Shown here: positions 19,999 through 25,596 of the stretch, one piece after another
Position numbering within the stretch: the stretch's first letter is position 1
How the letters are laid out: every line of letters begins with the position of its first letter
Assembly: GCF_009711475.1 (NCBI RefSeq)
Contig: NZ_SMMD01000944.1
Location: forward strand, 1 to 25,766
From: Fulvivirga aurantia
GTDB taxonomy: Bacteria; Bacteroidota; Bacteroidia; Cytophagales; Cyclobacteriaceae
Reading direction: 5' to 3'
DNA length: 25,766 nt
Translations under genes and position numbers: made by a program
The notes under the pieces: model-generated
Database searches by the model: none
Told to the model about the DNA's origin: nothing
What the model saw: the letters and a program-made list of their open reading frames with translations, nothing else

Positions 19999-20985
19999 AT
20001 GGCTAGAATAAAATATTACTACGATACAGAAACCTGTAAGTATGAGCGAGTAAAAGTAAAGTCGCAGGACGTTATCCTAAACTTCCTGGGCCTCGCATCT
20101 ATGATTGTGGTAGTTTCTGTTGGCCTTCTCATGTTATATAATGCATATTTTGAATCTCCAAAAGAGCTTATGCTCAAAAATGAGGTGGCCGAAATGGAGT
20201 ATTATTACCAAAGTTTGCAAGAGAAGGTAGATGAACTTGAGAAAGTGGTAGCCTCCCTCGAAGATCGTGATGACGATATCTACAGGGTGGTTTTAGGAGC
20301 AGATCCTATAGATCCTGCCGTGAGAAATGCCGGTATTGGTGGTGTTGATCGTTATGAGGAGATAAAAAACAAGAGCCTTGACCACGAAAAAGTAATTGTA
20401 TCATTGAGCGAGGATGTAAATAAGCTGAGACGGAAAATGTACATTCAGTCAAAATCATATGACGATATCGTGGAGTTGGCAGAGAATAAGGTAAAGATGT
20501 TTGCCGCTATTCCAGCTATTCAGCCCATTTCAAATCAGGAGCTAATTAGGTTGGCTTCGGGTTATGGTTATAGAATTCATCCGATTTATAAGGTAAAGAA
20601 GCTACACACGGGTATAGATTTCTCTGCCCCTATCGGCACCCCAATTTATGCCACGGCAGATGGTACCGTTTCTAAAGCGAAAGTGAGATTTAGCGGTTAT
20701 GGAAAAACAGTAGAGATTGATCATGGCTTTGGTTTCAAAACCAGATATGCGCACATGCATGATTTTGAAGTGAAGGAAGGGCAGCAGGTAAAACGTGGAC
20801 AAATCATTGGTTATGTGGGTAACACGGGGCTTTCTACTGCACCTCACCTACACTACGAGGTGATAAGAAATGATAAGAAAATTAACCCCGTTCATTATTT
20901 CTTCAACGATTTAGACCCCGAAGAATATGAAAAAGTGATTGAATTAGCTTCAATAGAGAACCAATCATTAGGTGGTGATAAATAA
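19999..20985 (+). CDS. Membrane-anchored M23 (LytM) peptidase
   Basis: 328 aa. A cytoplasmic tail of about 25 residues, a single transmembrane helix (about 26-48), a coiled-coil region (about 58-160), then a LytM domain (about 185-300) in the periplasm. Zinc ligands and catalytic His are all present: H203 and D207 (HTGID), H252 (AHMH) and H283-L-H285. It is therefore predicted to be an active peptidoglycan endopeptidase rather than an EnvC-like inactive activator. Third gene of the trhO operon, ending before the his leader. Confidence 0.92.
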   Translation: MARIKYYYDTETCKYERVKVKSQDVILNFLGLASMIVVVSVGLLMLYNAYFESPKELMLKNEVAEMEYYYQSLQEKVDELEKVVASLEDRDDDIYRVVLGADPIDPAVRNAGIGGVDRYEEIKNKSLDHEKVIVSLSEDVNKLRRKMYIQSKSYDDIVELAENKVKMFAAIPAIQPISNQELIRLASGYGYRIHPIYKVKKLHTGIDFSAPIGTPIYATADGTVSKAKVRFSGYGKTVEIDHGFGFKTRYAHMHDFEVKEGQQVKRGQIIGYVGNTGLSTAPHLHYEVIRNDKKINPVHYFFNDLDPEEYEKVIELASIENQSLGGDK

Positions 20986-21006: not shown

Positions 21007-21040
21007 TTGTGTTTTTAAAATAAATGAAAGTTAATCTTTG
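21007..21040 (+). promoter_or_regulatory. Candidate promoter of the his leader transcript
   Basis: TTG (21007-21009) and TAATCTTTG (21032-21040) resemble the -33 and -7 elements, with one extra base in the -7 box and a 22-bp spacer. It would start RNA about 30 nt before the leader peptide ATG. An alternative is TTG at 21038-21040 with TACTTCGC at 21061-21068. The choice is unresolved. Confidence 0.35.
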
Positions 21041-21075
21041 ATCTTATAAAATCTTTTTACTACTTCGCGTCAACA

Positions 21076-21159
21076 ATGCAATTATACAGCGCAACATATA
21101 ACCATCATCACCATCATCATGTTAACTCAGCATCGATGCATGGGCGGTTTATGTTATAG
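21076..21159 (+). CDS. hisL: Histidine operon leader peptide
   Basis: 27 codons: M-Q-L-Y-S-A-T-Y-N, then six consecutive His codons (21103-21120), then V-N-S-A-S-M-H-G-R-F-M-L and TAG. A seventh His codon is at 21139. It sits between a promoter-like region and an intrinsic terminator, directly upstream of hisG. This is the arrangement of classical attenuation, in which shortage of charged tRNA-His stalls the ribosome at the His run and prevents termination. The peptide has no other expected function. Confidence 0.88.
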   Translation: MQLYSATYNHHHHHHVNSASMHGRFML

Positions 21160-21225
21160 CTATATTTATATAGATATTATCACAAAAACATTAAGGCTTA
21201 CCATGCGGTAAGCCTTTTTTATTTT
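21136..21225 (+). promoter_or_regulatory. his attenuator: antiterminator segment competing with the terminator
   Basis: GCATGG (21138-21143), at the end of hisL, can pair with CCATGC (21201-21206), which covers the last two bases of the terminator 5' arm and its loop. After a 2x2 internal loop, GGTTT (21146-21150) can pair with AGGCT (21194-21198) using G-U pairs. This helix and the terminator are mutually exclusive. A ribosome stalled at 21103-21120 leaves 21136 onward free; a ribosome reaching the stop at 21157-21159 covers it. Fit by eye, no energies calculated. Confidence 0.6.
21193..21225 (+). terminator. his attenuator terminator
   Basis: A perfect 10-bp stem, AAGGCTTACC (21193-21202) with GGTAAGCCTT (21207-21216), loop ATGC, followed by TTTT then ATTTT. 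It lies 62 nt before hisG and 33 nt after the leader-peptide stop, so it ends leader transcripts when histidine is plentiful. Confidence 0.92.
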
Positions 21226-21287
21226 ACTCAATTTCAAACAAGAACTTCAGAATACTTAACAGGTAAAGCACAAAGCAAACAGGAACT

Positions 21288-22148
21288 ATGGAAAACAAAC
21301 TTAGAATTGCCATTCAAAAATCAGGAAGACTTCAGGAGAAATCAGTTAAACTACTTCGCGAGTGTGGTCTGTATTTCAGCAATGGCCCAAACAGACTTAA
21401 GACAGAATCTTACAACTTCCCGGCAGAGATTCTTTTTCTAAGAGACGATGATATCCCTCAATATGTAGAAGATGGCGTGGCAGACATCGGAATTGTTGGA
21501 GAGAACGTTTTTCTGGAAAAAAAGAAAGACATTGAGATAACCCAACGCCTCGATTTCGCAAAATGCAGACTTTCTCTTGCCATCCCTAAAGGCGATACAT
21601 ACGAAGGTATTCAGTCATTTGACGGTAAACAGATTGCCACCTCCTACCCTAACATCATCAAAGACTTTCTAGCCAAAAACAACATATCTGCAGAGATACA
21701 TGAGATCAGCGGATCTGTTGAAATCGCTCCGGGAATCGGACTAGCAGATGCTATATGCGATATTGTAAGTACCGGTAGCACACTTATGAGCAACGGCTTA
21801 AAAGAGGTTGAAACTGTGATTAAGTCTGAGGCAGTTTTAGTTTCCGGAAAATCTTTATCAGCTGAGAAACAAGCTATTTTGGACAAGCTTATCTTCAGGG
21901 TAAAAGCAGTAAATAAGGCTAAAAACACTAAATACATGTTGCTAAACGCACCCAATGACAGCGTAAAAGAAATATGCAGCGTATTGCCGGGTATGAAAAG
22001 TCCAACTGTCTTACCTTTAAAAGAGAGTGGCTGGTCTTCTGTGCACTCAGTGGTAAATGAAGACGAATTCTGGGACAAAATAGACGAACTTAAAGCACTT
22101 GGAGCCCAGGGAATTTTAGTTGTACCTATCGAAAAAATGATACTCTAA
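21288..22148 (+). CDS. hisG: ATP phosphoribosyltransferase, long form
   Basis: 286 aa. Catalyses the first committed step of histidine synthesis (ATP + PRPP to phosphoribosyl-ATP). Catalytic part: 'LRIAIQKSGRLQEKS', 'RDDDIPQYVEDGVADIGIVGENV', and PRPP-binding segment 'GSVEIAPGIGLADAICDIVSTGSTL'. The extra C-terminal domain (about 210-286, ending 'LGAQGILVVPIEKMI') is the ACT-like regulatory part of the long form, which mediates histidine feedback inhibition and does not need HisZ. It therefore has both attenuation and feedback control. HisD starts on its stop codon (TAATG). Confidence 0.96.
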   Translation: MENKLRIAIQKSGRLQEKSVKLLRECGLYFSNGPNRLKTESYNFPAEILFLRDDDIPQYVEDGVADIGIVGENVFLEKKKDIEITQRLDFAKCRLSLAIPKGDTYEGIQSFDGKQIATSYPNIIKDFLAKNNISAEIHEISGSVEIAPGIGLADAICDIVSTGSTLMSNGLKEVETVIKSEAVLVSGKSLSAEKQAILDKLIFRVKAVNKAKNTKYMLLNAPNDSVKEICSVLPGMKSPTVLPLKESGWSSVHSVVNEDEFWDKIDELKALGAQGILVVPIEKMIL

Positions 22149-23443
22149 TGTTGACTATTAAGAAATACCCAAAACCTGAGCAATGGGCAAGCATTCTACA
22201 ACGTCCTGTTCTGGAAACTGATTTTTTAGAAAGTGCAGTTAGAAATATTCTCACCCGCGTGAAGGCCTCAGGTGATAAAGCACTATTTGAATTTAATGAA
22301 CAGTTTGACAAATCGAAGATTGATGCTTTACAAGTGAGTGAAGATGAGTTAAAATCAGCAGATGACTCTACTGATGTAACACTTAAGACAGCCATAAAAC
22401 AAGCCTATGAAAACATTTATACTTTTCACAAGGAGCAAAAGCGTGAAGAACTTCGGGTAGATACCATGCCAGGGGTCACTTGCTGGCGAAAGGCTCTGCC
22501 TATTGAAAAAGTAGGTCTTTACATACCGGGTGGCACAGCACCATTGTTTTCTTCGGTACTTATGCTCGGTATACCAGCCAAAATTGCCGGCTGTTCTGAG
22601 ATAGTCTTATGCACCCCACCACAGCCAGATGGCAATATAAATCCAGCGATACTATATGCCGCCAAACTTGTGGGCATTACTAAAGTGTATAAAGTAGGTG
22701 GCGCCCAAGCCATAGCAGCCATGGCGTATGGTACCGAAAGCATAGCGCGGGTTGATAAGATTTTTGGGCCTGGCAACCAGTATGTAACTGCTGCCAAACA
22801 GATGGTGAGTCTACAGGGTACTGCTATAGATATGCCGGCCGGCCCATCAGAGGTGATGGTTTTGGCAGACGAGAGCAGCAATGCCGACTTTATTGCATCT
22901 GATTTGCTTTCTCAGGCTGAGCATGGCAAAGACAGCCAGGTGGTGCTCCTAAGTACAGATGAATCGCTTTTAGAAAGTGTAAATAAGGCCATCGAAAAAC
23001 AAATTGAGAGTTTACCTAGAAAGGTGATTGCGGTAGAAAGCCTAAGCAAAAGTGTGGGTGTTTTAGTAAAAGACACTGCCGAAATGATGCAGATGAGCAA
23101 CGCTTATGCTCCGGAACATTTAATTATAGCCACTAAAAATGCAGAAACATTAGCCGATCAGGTAATAAATGCTGGATCGGTATTTATTGGGGCATTCACC
23201 CCTGAATCTGCCGGAGATTACGCTTCTGGCACAAACCACACATTGCCTACCAACGGGGCGGCACGGGCCTATAGTGGGGTAAGTTTAGACAGCTTTACCA
23301 AACAAGTTACTTTTCAGCAAATAACTGAGGGTGGAATCAAATCACTCGGTCCTACCATCGAATTGATGGCTGAAGCAGAGGAACTTGCTGCTCACAAAAA
23401 TGCTGTTTCACTCAGACTCAAGTATCTGGAAAATGGAAATTGA
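22148..23443 (+). CDS. hisD: Histidinol dehydrogenase
   Basis: 431 aa. Oxidises L-histidinol to histidine in two NAD-dependent steps, with zinc. Family signatures: 'GLYIPGGTAPLFSSVLMLGIPA', 'KVGGAQAIAAMAYGT', 'VDKIFGPGNQYVTAAK', 'IDMPAGPSEVMVLAD', 'LLSQAEHGKDSQVVL' (zinc and catalytic region), 'NAYAPEHLII' and 'GDYASGTNHTLPTNGAAR'. Full length. Overlaps hisG by one base and hisC by 11 bases. Confidence 0.97.
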   Translation: MLTIKKYPKPEQWASILQRPVLETDFLESAVRNILTRVKASGDKALFEFNEQFDKSKIDALQVSEDELKSADDSTDVTLKTAIKQAYENIYTFHKEQKREELRVDTMPGVTCWRKALPIEKVGLYIPGGTAPLFSSVLMLGIPAKIAGCSEIVLCTPPQPDGNINPAILYAAKLVGITKVYKVGGAQAIAAMAYGTESIARVDKIFGPGNQYVTAAKQMVSLQGTAIDMPAGPSEVMVLADESSNADFIASDLLSQAEHGKDSQVVLLSTDESLLESVNKAIEKQIESLPRKVIAVESLSKSVGVLVKDTAEMMQMSNAYAPEHLIIATKNAETLADQVINAGSVFIGAFTPESAGDYASGTNHTLPTNGAARAYSGVSLDSFTKQVTFQQITEGGIKSLGPTIELMAEAEELAAHKNAVSLRLKYLENGN

Positions 23444-24467
23444 AAAATTGGTGAGGCCTAATATTCTGGCCTTAAAAGCTTACTCTTCAGCAAGAGATGA
23501 GTACAGCAGCACGGGTGAGGCTGTGTTATTAGATGCCAACGAAAACCCATATAAATCAGCTGTAAACCGATACCCTGACCCCTACCAACGTGAGGTAAAA
23601 AGCAAACTGGCAGAAATTAAATCTGTAAAACCGAGTCAAATTTTTCTTGGCAATGGTAGTGATGAGGCTATAGATCTTATTTTCAGAATTTTCTGCGAAC
23701 CGGGAAAGGATAATATCGTCATCACTGACCCAACTTATGGCATGTATGAGGTTTCTGCTGGTATCAATAACATTGAAATCATCAAAGCCCCGCTGAATAC
23801 CGATTTTAGTCTGGATCCCGGAGCCGTTTTAACTGCCATAAATGAGAATACAAAGGTGGTATTTTTGTGCTCACCCAATAACCCATCAGGTAATCTTCTG
23901 GATGAAGCCGCTATTGAAAAGATTGCAGATAGTTTCAATGGTATTCTGGTGGTTGACGAAGCGTATATTGATTTTGCCGGAACAGCATCATTTGCAAAAA
24001 ATCTTGATAAGTACAAGCAACTGATAGTACTGCAAACTTTTTCTAAAGCCTGGGGTATGGCTGGGGTACGTTTGGGTATGGCATTTGCCAATCAGGAGAT
24101 CATCAGCCTTTTCAATAAGGTAAAACCTCCCTACAACATCAATGAGCTCACACAACAATATGCCTTACAGCAACTGTCTAATCCCGAGTTGATCAGGAAA
24201 AACATAGTGCAAATCATAGCAGAACGCGATAAGCTGAAACGTGAACTAGAAAGCTTACCGTCTGTTGACATGGTTTTTCCCTCTGATAGTAACTTTTTGT
24301 TAGTAAGGTTTTCGAATGCAAAAACACTATTTGATCAATTAGTTGAGAAGAAAATCATTGTAAGGGACAGATCAAAAGTAAGATTTGGTGATAATTGCTT
24401 GAGAATTACTGTAGGCACACCTGAAGAAAATAATTTATTAATCGACACGCTAAAAGCATTGCAATAA
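23433..24467 (+). CDS. hisC: Histidinol-phosphate aminotransferase
   Basis: 344 aa from the start chosen here. PLP-dependent fold-type I enzyme that converts imidazole acetol phosphate to histidinol phosphate. Motifs: 'LDANENPYKSAVNRYPDPYQ', 'LGNGSDEAIDLIFRIFCEPG', 'LCSPNNPSGN', 'VDEAYIDFAG', and PLP lysine K205 in 'TFSKAWGMAGVRLG'. The frame is open upstream to 23385, but residues before Met17 lack family similarity and would overlap hisD by 59 bp; the ATG at 23433 gives MEIEKLVRPNIL, normal for HisC. It overlaps hisD by 11 bp and precedes hisB by 10 nt. Confidence 0.96.
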   Translation: MEIEKLVRPNILALKAYSSARDEYSSTGEAVLLDANENPYKSAVNRYPDPYQREVKSKLAEIKSVKPSQIFLGNGSDEAIDLIFRIFCEPGKDNIVITDPTYGMYEVSAGINNIEIIKAPLNTDFSLDPGAVLTAINENTKVVFLCSPNNPSGNLLDEAAIEKIADSFNGILVVDEAYIDFAGTASFAKNLDKYKQLIVLQTFSKAWGMAGVRLGMAFANQEIISLFNKVKPPYNINELTQQYALQQLSNPELIRKNIVQIIAERDKLKRELESLPSVDMVFPSDSNFLLVRFSNAKTLFDQLVEKKIIVRDRSKVRFGDNCLRITVGTPEENNLLIDTLKALQ

Positions 24468-24477
24468 TCATTGAAGT

Positions 24478-25596
24478 ATGAAAAAAGTACTTTTTATAGA
24501 CAGAGACGGTACACTCATTATCGAACCGGAAGATGAACAAATTGATTGTCTGGAGAAACTGGAATTTTATCCTAAAGTATTTACTGAGCTATCTAAAATC
24601 GCCAAAAATGATCAGTTTGAGTTGGTAATGGTCACCAACCAGGACGGCTTGGGCACTGAGTCATTTCCTGAAAACACCTTCTGGCCTGCACAAAATAAAA
24701 TGCTCAAAACGCTGGAAAATGAAGGTATTGTCTTTGATGAGATTTTGATTGACGATTCATTCCCTCACGAAAATAAGCCAACCCGAAAACCCGGCACAGG
24801 TCTTCTCACAAAGTATCTGAACGGGAATTACGACCTGAAGAATTCGTTTGTTATTGGGGACAGGCTCAGCGATATAAAACTGGCTGAAAATTTAGGCTGT
24901 CAGGGCATACTTATGAATGAGAACCTGGTAGAAGACCTGGCCGATCAGCAATTGGATGAAAGCTGTGCGCTAATCTCCTCCGATTGGTCAAAGATCGCCT
25001 CTTTTCTCATGAAAAAATCACGGGTAGGCACGGTAAAGCGCAAAACTAAGGAGACCGATATTTCGATCAGCCTTAACCTTGATGGTACAGGTCAGGCCAA
25101 TATCAGCACAGGTATCGTGTTTTTTGATCATATGTTGGAGCAGATTGCGAAGCATGGCCTAATCGATCTTAATATACTTACCAAAGGAGATTTAGAAGTT
25201 GACGAGCATCACACGATCGAAGATACAGCCATTGCATTGGGAGAAGCCTTTCTACAAGCACTTGGAAACAAGCGAGGGATCGAGCGATATGGCTTTTGCC
25301 TGCCTATGGATGATGCATTGGCACAGGTAGCTTTAGATTTTGGTGGCAGAAACTGGATTGTTTGGGAGGCTGAGTTTAAGCGTGAGATGATTGGAAAAAT
25401 GCCAACTGAGATGTTTTACCACTTCTTTAAGTCTTTCTCAGATAGCGCAAAATGCAATTTAAATATCTCTGTAAAAGGCGATAATGAGCACCATAAAATT
25501 GAAGGAATTTTCAAAGCTTTTGCCAAAGCCATTAAAATGGCCGTGAAGAAAGACGCGAATAATGAAGAGTTGCCTAGCACCAAAGGTGTTTTGTAA
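24478..25596 (+). CDS. hisB: Bifunctional histidinol-phosphatase / imidazoleglycerol-phosphate dehydratase
   Basis: 372 aa fusion. The N-terminal HAD phosphatase (about 1-165) has nucleophile region FIDRDGT (D8, D10), 'VTNQDG' (52-57), K104 in RKP and GDR (127-129). The C-terminal dehydratase (about 183-372) has metal-binding 'DHML' (H218), 'DEHHTIED' (H244, H245, E248), H315 (MFYHFF), 'DNEHHKIEG' (H338, H339, E342) and the ending LPSTKG. In E. coli HisB a Cys-His-Cys-Cys zinc site lies before RKP; the matching segment here is [12 protein letters not shown] (94-105), which keeps one His but no Cys. It catalyses steps 6 and 8 of histidine synthesis. The downstream his genes (hisH, A, F, I) are not within the window. 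Confidence 0.95.

Follow-up and report, generated by a model that had tools for sequence, protein, structure and literature searches.

A predicted ribosome-mediated attenuator with a histidine-rich leader peptide precedes hisG in Fulvivirga aurantia and in many related Bacteroidota

How the histidine biosynthesis operon of Fulvivirga aurantia might be controlled is the question raised by a short stretch of DNA upstream of hisG. The window, i.e. the whole stretch of 25,766 nt that was analysed, holds in this order hisL, a terminator and hisGDCB (Table 1), with base 22148 common to the hisG and hisD frames, and the gene before hisL codes for an M23 peptidase that lies on the same strand and ends at position 20985. 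An earlier note on this DNA had described a 27-codon hisL with six consecutive His codons plus a seventh, a perfect 10-bp terminator with a T-tract at 21193-21225, and hisG 62 nt further on; the coordinates of both leader and terminator proved exact, those of hisL to the base, and hisG, identified by its match to TIGR00070, does start at this distance. On the evidence given below, the segment very probably controls the his operon as a ribosome-mediated transcription attenuator.

Table 1. Features of the his leader region and the his operon (positions in the window).
Feature	Position	Strand	Basis or remark
Candidate -33 element TTTG	21037..21040	+	Bacteroidota-type consensus quoted in PMC7366714
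Degenerate candidate -7 element TACTTCGC	21061..21068	+	20 nt after TTTG
hisL, 27-codon leader peptide MQLYSATYNHHHHHHVNSASMHGRFML	21076..21159	+	ATG 21076, TAG 21157-21159; related peptides in relatives
Segment 1, hisL codons predicted to pair with segment 2 without ribosome	21084..21123	+	Minimum free energy fold of 21076-21206 and of 21060-21235
Sensor, six consecutive His codons	21103..21120	+	CAT CAT CAC CAT CAT CAT
Segment 2, predicted antiterminator 5' half, in 3' end of hisL	21138..21155	+	Duplex energy versus shuffles; snapshot fold
Segment 3, predicted antiterminator 3' half, overlaps terminator 5' arm and loop	21187..21206	+	Duplex energy; snapshot fold
Intrinsic terminator	21193..21225	+	10-bp stem 21193-21216 plus T-rich tail; sequence and fold
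hisG	21288..22148	+	TIGR00070 (195 bits, cut-off 75.75), PF01634, PF08029
hisD	22148..23443	+	TIGR00069, 542.9 bits
hisC	23385..24467	+	TIGR01141, 366.8 bits; listed ORF from TTG 23385, family match from residue 24
Bifunctional hisB	24478..25596	+	NF003937, 539.8 bits, cut-off 443

The His run of hisL stands out in its own genome. Within 4.44 Mb, the pattern of five CAY codons matched eight times, at seven distinct places, and its backwards version once, and overlapping matches, which correspond to a run of six, were found in the window only. Another of these runs (L002, G000:C303:9011-9025) lies within a 138-aa open frame that by eye resembles a Fur-type metal regulator. The seventh His codon of hisL is at 21139-21141. 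The terminator stem is formed by AAGGCTTACC (21193-21202) and GGTAAGCCTT (21207-21216) around the loop ATGC (21203-21206), with T-rich sequence up to 21225 and a predicted hairpin energy of -14.9 kcal/mol. The 176-nt leader as a whole (21060-21235) folded at -38.0 kcal/mol, compared with -23.4 +/- 3.5 kcal/mol for 200 shuffles (z -4.2), one of which equalled it.

The upstream regions of hisG were then compared among relatives. A hisG gene was detected in 50 of 58 genomes, in 69 of 158 genomes of the class and in 113 of 118 of the family; these sets overlap, and each includes the genome of the window. The first set comprised 124 hisG loci (the own locus, 49 of relatives, 66 further class loci and eight named records), two of which had less than 200 nt of upstream sequence, leaving 122 to be scored; two hisG fragments (G070:C83 and G257) are outside all counts. 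A short ORF with at least four His in seven codons was found upstream of hisG in 83 of the 122 loci, while the next amino acid in the same scan, Leu, reached 20; on the reverse strand His scored 0 and the highest count was 44, for Met. At trpE and ilvB control loci a His-dense ORF was present anywhere in only 4 of 76 strands of up to approximately 4.7 kb each. Within the genus, a His-rich hisL was found in each of the 14 genomes whose upstream sequence is long enough, that of L015 having three His codons only, and the terminator is present in all 15 genomes, the own one included; in L011, with 85 nt of upstream sequence, the terminator alone is visible. The conservation check that the earlier note had proposed for the His run and the terminator thus came out in its favour. 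Further afield, locus L066, labelled as a Chlorobiota bacterium, combines a terminator and an antiterminator with a His leader that is weak (HYGHH).

Leader ORFs were also seen before another amino acid operon. Ten of the 13 best trpE loci (L153-L157, L159-L162 and L164) carry leader ORFs with WWW, in tandem pairs in L153, L155, L156 and L162. The trpE gene of the own genome (G000:C543:2-1276) is at the very start of its contig, so that its leader is out of sight. The ilvB upstream regions of relatives showed no clear leader, and ilvB may not be the first gene of its operon.

For a terminator to be called, the sequence between the His run and hisG had to contain a U-tract hairpin of at most -9 kcal/mol; this was so in 68 of 86 loci with four or more His and in 16 of the 38 other loci. 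Ten rounds of the same scan on dinucleotide shuffles gave 0-3 of 86, and 33 of 86 reverse strands were also positive, such hairpins being nearly symmetric. In an alignment of 17 sequences from the genus and its near kin, 99.4% of the terminator cells were paired and 10 cells were changed on both sides, values that none of 500 shuffles attained on either measure.

Besides the leader and the terminator, which the earlier note had described, the window and many of its relatives contain a predicted antiterminator competing for the 5' arm of the terminator, which that note had not mentioned. In the window, 21138-21143 can pair with 21201-21206 and 21146-21150 with 21194-21198, and the pairing of segment 2 with the 5' arm has a predicted energy of -13.4 kcal/mol compared with a shuffle mean of -7.6 (p 0.017, 300 shuffles); in the snapshot fold for a stalled ribosome, the helix reaches as far as the pair formed by 21155 and 21187. 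Pairing, spacing, snapshot and equilibrium-folding counts (see below) cover loci with both leader and terminator and a spacer within the length limits, and the eight named records are left out of all 94-locus counts, the 71-locus permutation, the 133-locus promoter count and the stop-hairpin counts. In 51 of 79 loci (300 shuffles each) and in 57 of the 94 loci of the larger set (200 shuffles each), the segment 2/3 pairing surpassed that of shuffles at p < 0.05. When the 94 loci were thinned to 71, own partners paired at a mean of -13.2 kcal/mol and permuted partners at -9.7 kcal/mol, none of 5000 permutations was as low, and the own partner of segment 2 ranked in the top quarter for 47 of the 71 loci; as these loci are related, the p-values overstate their independence. 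The letters of the helix differ by clade (GCAUGG:CCAUGC in the genus, CUCAGGCGA:CCGUCUGAG and GGGUAAGCC:GGCUUACC elsewhere), so that it is the pairing rather than the sequence of the antiterminator that appears to be kept. The 17-sequence genus alignment showed no clear covariation of this helix: 82.2% of its cells were paired, compared with 32-49% for slid versions; 16 of 500 shuffles reached this value and 104 of 500 reached its covariation score.

In the window fold without ribosome, 21084-21123, a stretch that takes in the His codons, is predicted to sequester segment 2. As a class-wide rule, a protector pairing between segments 1 and 2 was not supported by duplex energy compared with shuffles, since the duplex of the His region with segment 2 was no better than chance (3 of 94 loci at p < 0.05, median p 0.50).

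When a His codon occupies the A site, the ribosome covers approximately 12 nt downstream, and this value was taken as the footprint of the model. Segment 2 starts a median of 14 nt past the last His codon (IQR 11-17), compared with 18 nt (7-29) for shuffled spacers, and its start falls 8-20 nt past the last His in 74% of the loci and 30% of the shuffles. Among 95 loci, the median distance from the last His codon is 27 nt to the end of the stop codon and 56 nt to the start of the terminator. With the above footprint, segment 2 would begin near the downstream edge of a ribosome stalled at the last His codon, and would lie under a ribosome that has reached the stop codon.

The consequences of ribosome position were modelled by a folding snapshot, in which the transcript is truncated right after the terminator loop and the score is the mean probability that the final nucleotides of the 5' arm pair with any upstream partner, segment 2 being only one of these. 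With no ribosome, a ribosome stalled on the His codons and a ribosome at the stop codon, the window scored 0.07, 0.71 and 0.09, respectively; the mean of 94 loci was 0.42, 0.77 and 0.34, and that of 282 shuffled-spacer controls 0.49, 0.54 and 0.44. A stalled score more than 0.3 above the stop score was obtained for 64 of the 94 loci and 53 of the 282 controls, and a difference below -0.3 was found in one of the 94. The E. coli his leader (0.06, 0.79 and 0.37) and trp leader (0.29, 0.71 and 0.03) behaved similarly in the same model. Four loci of the same genus (L012, L017, L018 and L020) did not clearly distinguish stall from stop, and in L010 the difference was small. In this model, ribosome position is predicted to select the structure formed in the window, and the model suggests some sequestering of segment 2 in the absence of a ribosome. 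Equilibrium folding with the whole terminator was uninformative as a test of the switch because termination wins in nearly all loci and states: the mean pair probability of the terminator was below 0.5 in 0, 3, 4 and 1 of 94 loci (no ribosome, stall on the first His, stall on the last His, and stop, respectively), and for E. coli his and trp it was above 0.9 in all states. As the terminator is favoured in nearly every state, the choice must be a kinetic one, made during transcription.

The attenuation logic that the earlier note had carried over from Proteobacteria is supported by the conserved His run and terminator and by the predicted antiterminator, from which we infer the following mechanism. 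RNA polymerase would start just before hisL, with a ribosome trailing on the nascent RNA. When His-tRNA is plentiful, this ribosome would reach the stop codon at 21157 and its footprint would cover segment 2, so that the terminator stem (21193-21216) could fold and transcription would end before hisG. When charged His-tRNA is short, the ribosome would stall on 21103-21120, and in the folding snapshot segment 2 is then occupied neither by the ribosome nor by segment 1; the freed 21138-21155 would pair with 21187-21206 ahead of the synthesis of the terminator's 3' arm, and the polymerase, its terminator pre-empted, would read through into hisGDCB.

A candidate promoter lies just before hisL. TTTG, CTTG or TTGG is found 39-50 nt before the hisL ATG in 12 of 13 genus leaders and is missing in L021. 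Transcription starts approximately 5 nt past a -7 element; if this holds for the degenerate candidate of the window, hisL would be almost devoid of a 5' untranslated region, with a predicted start near 21073 that leaves approximately 3 nt. The exact TAnnTTTG, the -7 consensus quoted in PMC7366714, was not found in the 140 nt before the hisL of the window. Of 133 related loci, 89 have it upstream of an in-frame leader ATG, with a median gap of 10 nt (IQR 7-18), and 19 regions hold it in the reverse-strand control. The leader peptides of these 89 loci would thus be nearly leaderless; in B. thetaiotaomicron, approximately 3.7% of 5' UTRs are reported to be shorter than 10 nt (PMC7366714).

Adding the family set brought the total to 211 loci and revealed His leaders of a second architecture, defined by an HHSS-like ending, in which HH is followed by S/C/A and S/L within the final nine residues. 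Among the 125 loci of the family, 41 have a terminator together with a leader of at least four His and 4 with one of three His; of those without a terminator, 40 are HHSS-like, a count that leans to HHSS where several ORFs competed since the leader finder gave a small bonus to such endings, 24 have another leader of at least four His and 9 one of three His. The remainder consists of 6 loci with neither a His ORF nor a terminator and one that is too short. In the 78 loci of other families, the terminator occurs with at least four His in 42, with three His in 8 and with no His ORF in 4; loci without it comprise 3 HHSS-like, 7 other leaders of at least four His, 3 of three His and 11 with neither feature.

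Of the 40 HHSS-like family loci in which the scan found no terminator (e.g. L031, L033, L145, L148, L199 and L206), 35 contain HHSS and 23 end in HHxHHSS. AUAU(C/U)GCC occurs within 60 nt past the stop codon in 25 of them, and a strict count, which misses some palindromes, gives 32 with a stem of at least 5 bp at the stop codon. HHSS-like leader stops end 52-140 nt before hisG. Across all families, 44 of 82 loci without a terminator have a hairpin right after the last His that surpasses shuffles at p < 0.05, compared with 11 of 94 terminator loci, and the arms of the stop hairpin co-vary (CCUCC/GGAGG, CUCUC/GAGAG, GCC/GGC and UUGCU/AGCAA). RNAalifold, applied to a MAFFT alignment of 36 HHSS leaders, gave no consensus structure. 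Downstream there is more C (22%) than G (12%), compared with 19% and 16% in the terminator class; such an excess would be in keeping with Rho but is no proof of it. The conserved CUAAACGUAUAUUGC, or a close variant of it, lies just before the hisG start in several HHSS loci (L031-L033, L193, L197 and L199) and is possibly a second promoter. We propose, tentatively and as a reading that we hold to be possible rather than probable, that the family has two His leader switches and that the HHSS one acts without intrinsic termination, through Rho, translation or RNA decay.

Other explanations of the window can be weighed against these data. The hairpin might serve only as the terminator of the upstream M23 peptidase gene, with hisG transcribed from a promoter of its own and hisL a chance or unrelated ORF. 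The upstream gene does end on the same strand at 20985, and the 62 nt between the T-tract and hisG would leave room for a start site; the distance from stem end to hisG is only 21-26 nt in 11 of 13 genus loci, which leaves little space for a separate hisG promoter, and the exact TAnnTTTG was not found in 21226-21287, though the candidate before hisL is inexact as well. Since this explanation also leaves the His run, the placement of segment 2 and its pairing unaccounted for, we regard it as very improbable. We give marginally less credit still to a leader that acts on translation or mRNA stability, with a stalled ribosome altering access to the hisG start, and not on termination. Family relatives with His leaders for which the scan found no U-tract terminator indicate that the terminator is not indispensable, yet the window has a strong one, the 5' arm of which is the very partner in the predicted antiterminator pairing.

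The least credible possibility, to which we assign hardly any weight, is that hisL codes for a functional metal-binding small protein and stands before hisG by accident. Six-His runs do bind metal, but such an ORF precedes hisG in 83 of 122 loci and occurs in 4 of 76 trpE/ilvB strands, and the remainder of the hisL peptide varies widely.

Leader-peptide attenuation is classical, and the predicted his attenuator of the window is ordinary in kind and broad in this phylum. None of 4227 curated RNA families, including riboswitches and T-box leaders, matched the window at its gathering score; in a relaxed Rfam scan, Phe_leader reached a sub-threshold 37.1 bits (E 0.00011, threshold 55), and membership of the His_leader family (RF00514) was rejected at 22.5 bits, below the gathering threshold of 49. 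Like the enterobacterial his leader of RF00514, the window has a His run in a short ORF, a U-tract terminator and hisG downstream, and the E. coli his leader gave the same pattern of no ribosome, stall and stop in the same model. Unlike in RF00514, segment 2 lies within the 3' end of hisL, and the candidate promoter is of the Bacteroidota type. The Bacteroid-trp motif precedes trp genes. This motif (RF01692), which Table 1 of PMC2864571 gives as a likely cis-regulatory RNA in Bacteroidetes, has no match in the window. In bacilli, a His codon stretch in a leader ORF, as in the window, has been described for a premature-terminator candidate of hisS/hisZ (PMC2965389); these leaders differ in belonging to Firmicutes and in preceding synthetase-type genes and no his biosynthesis operon. 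According to the same paper, published in 2010, leader-peptide systems had until then been found only in Proteobacteria and Actinobacteria, atypical ermC set aside.

Within the phylum of the window, strong clues for leader-peptide attenuation before amino acid operons have been reported for Flavobacterium psychrophilum (PMC9723704), in a paper whose main text does not contain the word 'histidine'. The main text of a 2021 paper on the his genes of the Bacteroidota superphylum (PMC8305728) has neither 'leader' nor 'hisL', and its single 'attenuat' passage concerns E. coli and Salmonella. Titles and abstract beginnings among the matches listed named no his attenuator in Bacteroidota, and such switches have hardly been described before in this bacterial group. 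The abstract of a 2004 paper by Vitreschak reportedly mentions some attenuators from Bacteroidetes/Chlorobi, and that paper may therefore have been the first to put forward the idea.

Leader-peptide attenuation requires that a ribosome follow the polymerase closely, and Bacteroidota, to our knowledge, hardly rely on Shine-Dalgarno sites. If leaders of fixed spacing are common across Bacteroidia, coupling would become directly testable with small reporters and hisL ORFs could be found by rule. The terminator-less sister form would provide a natural comparison, i.e. two ways of reading the same signal. If both the two switches and the leader ORFs approximately 10 nt past a -7 element hold true, close coupling of ribosome and polymerase would be widespread in the phylum.
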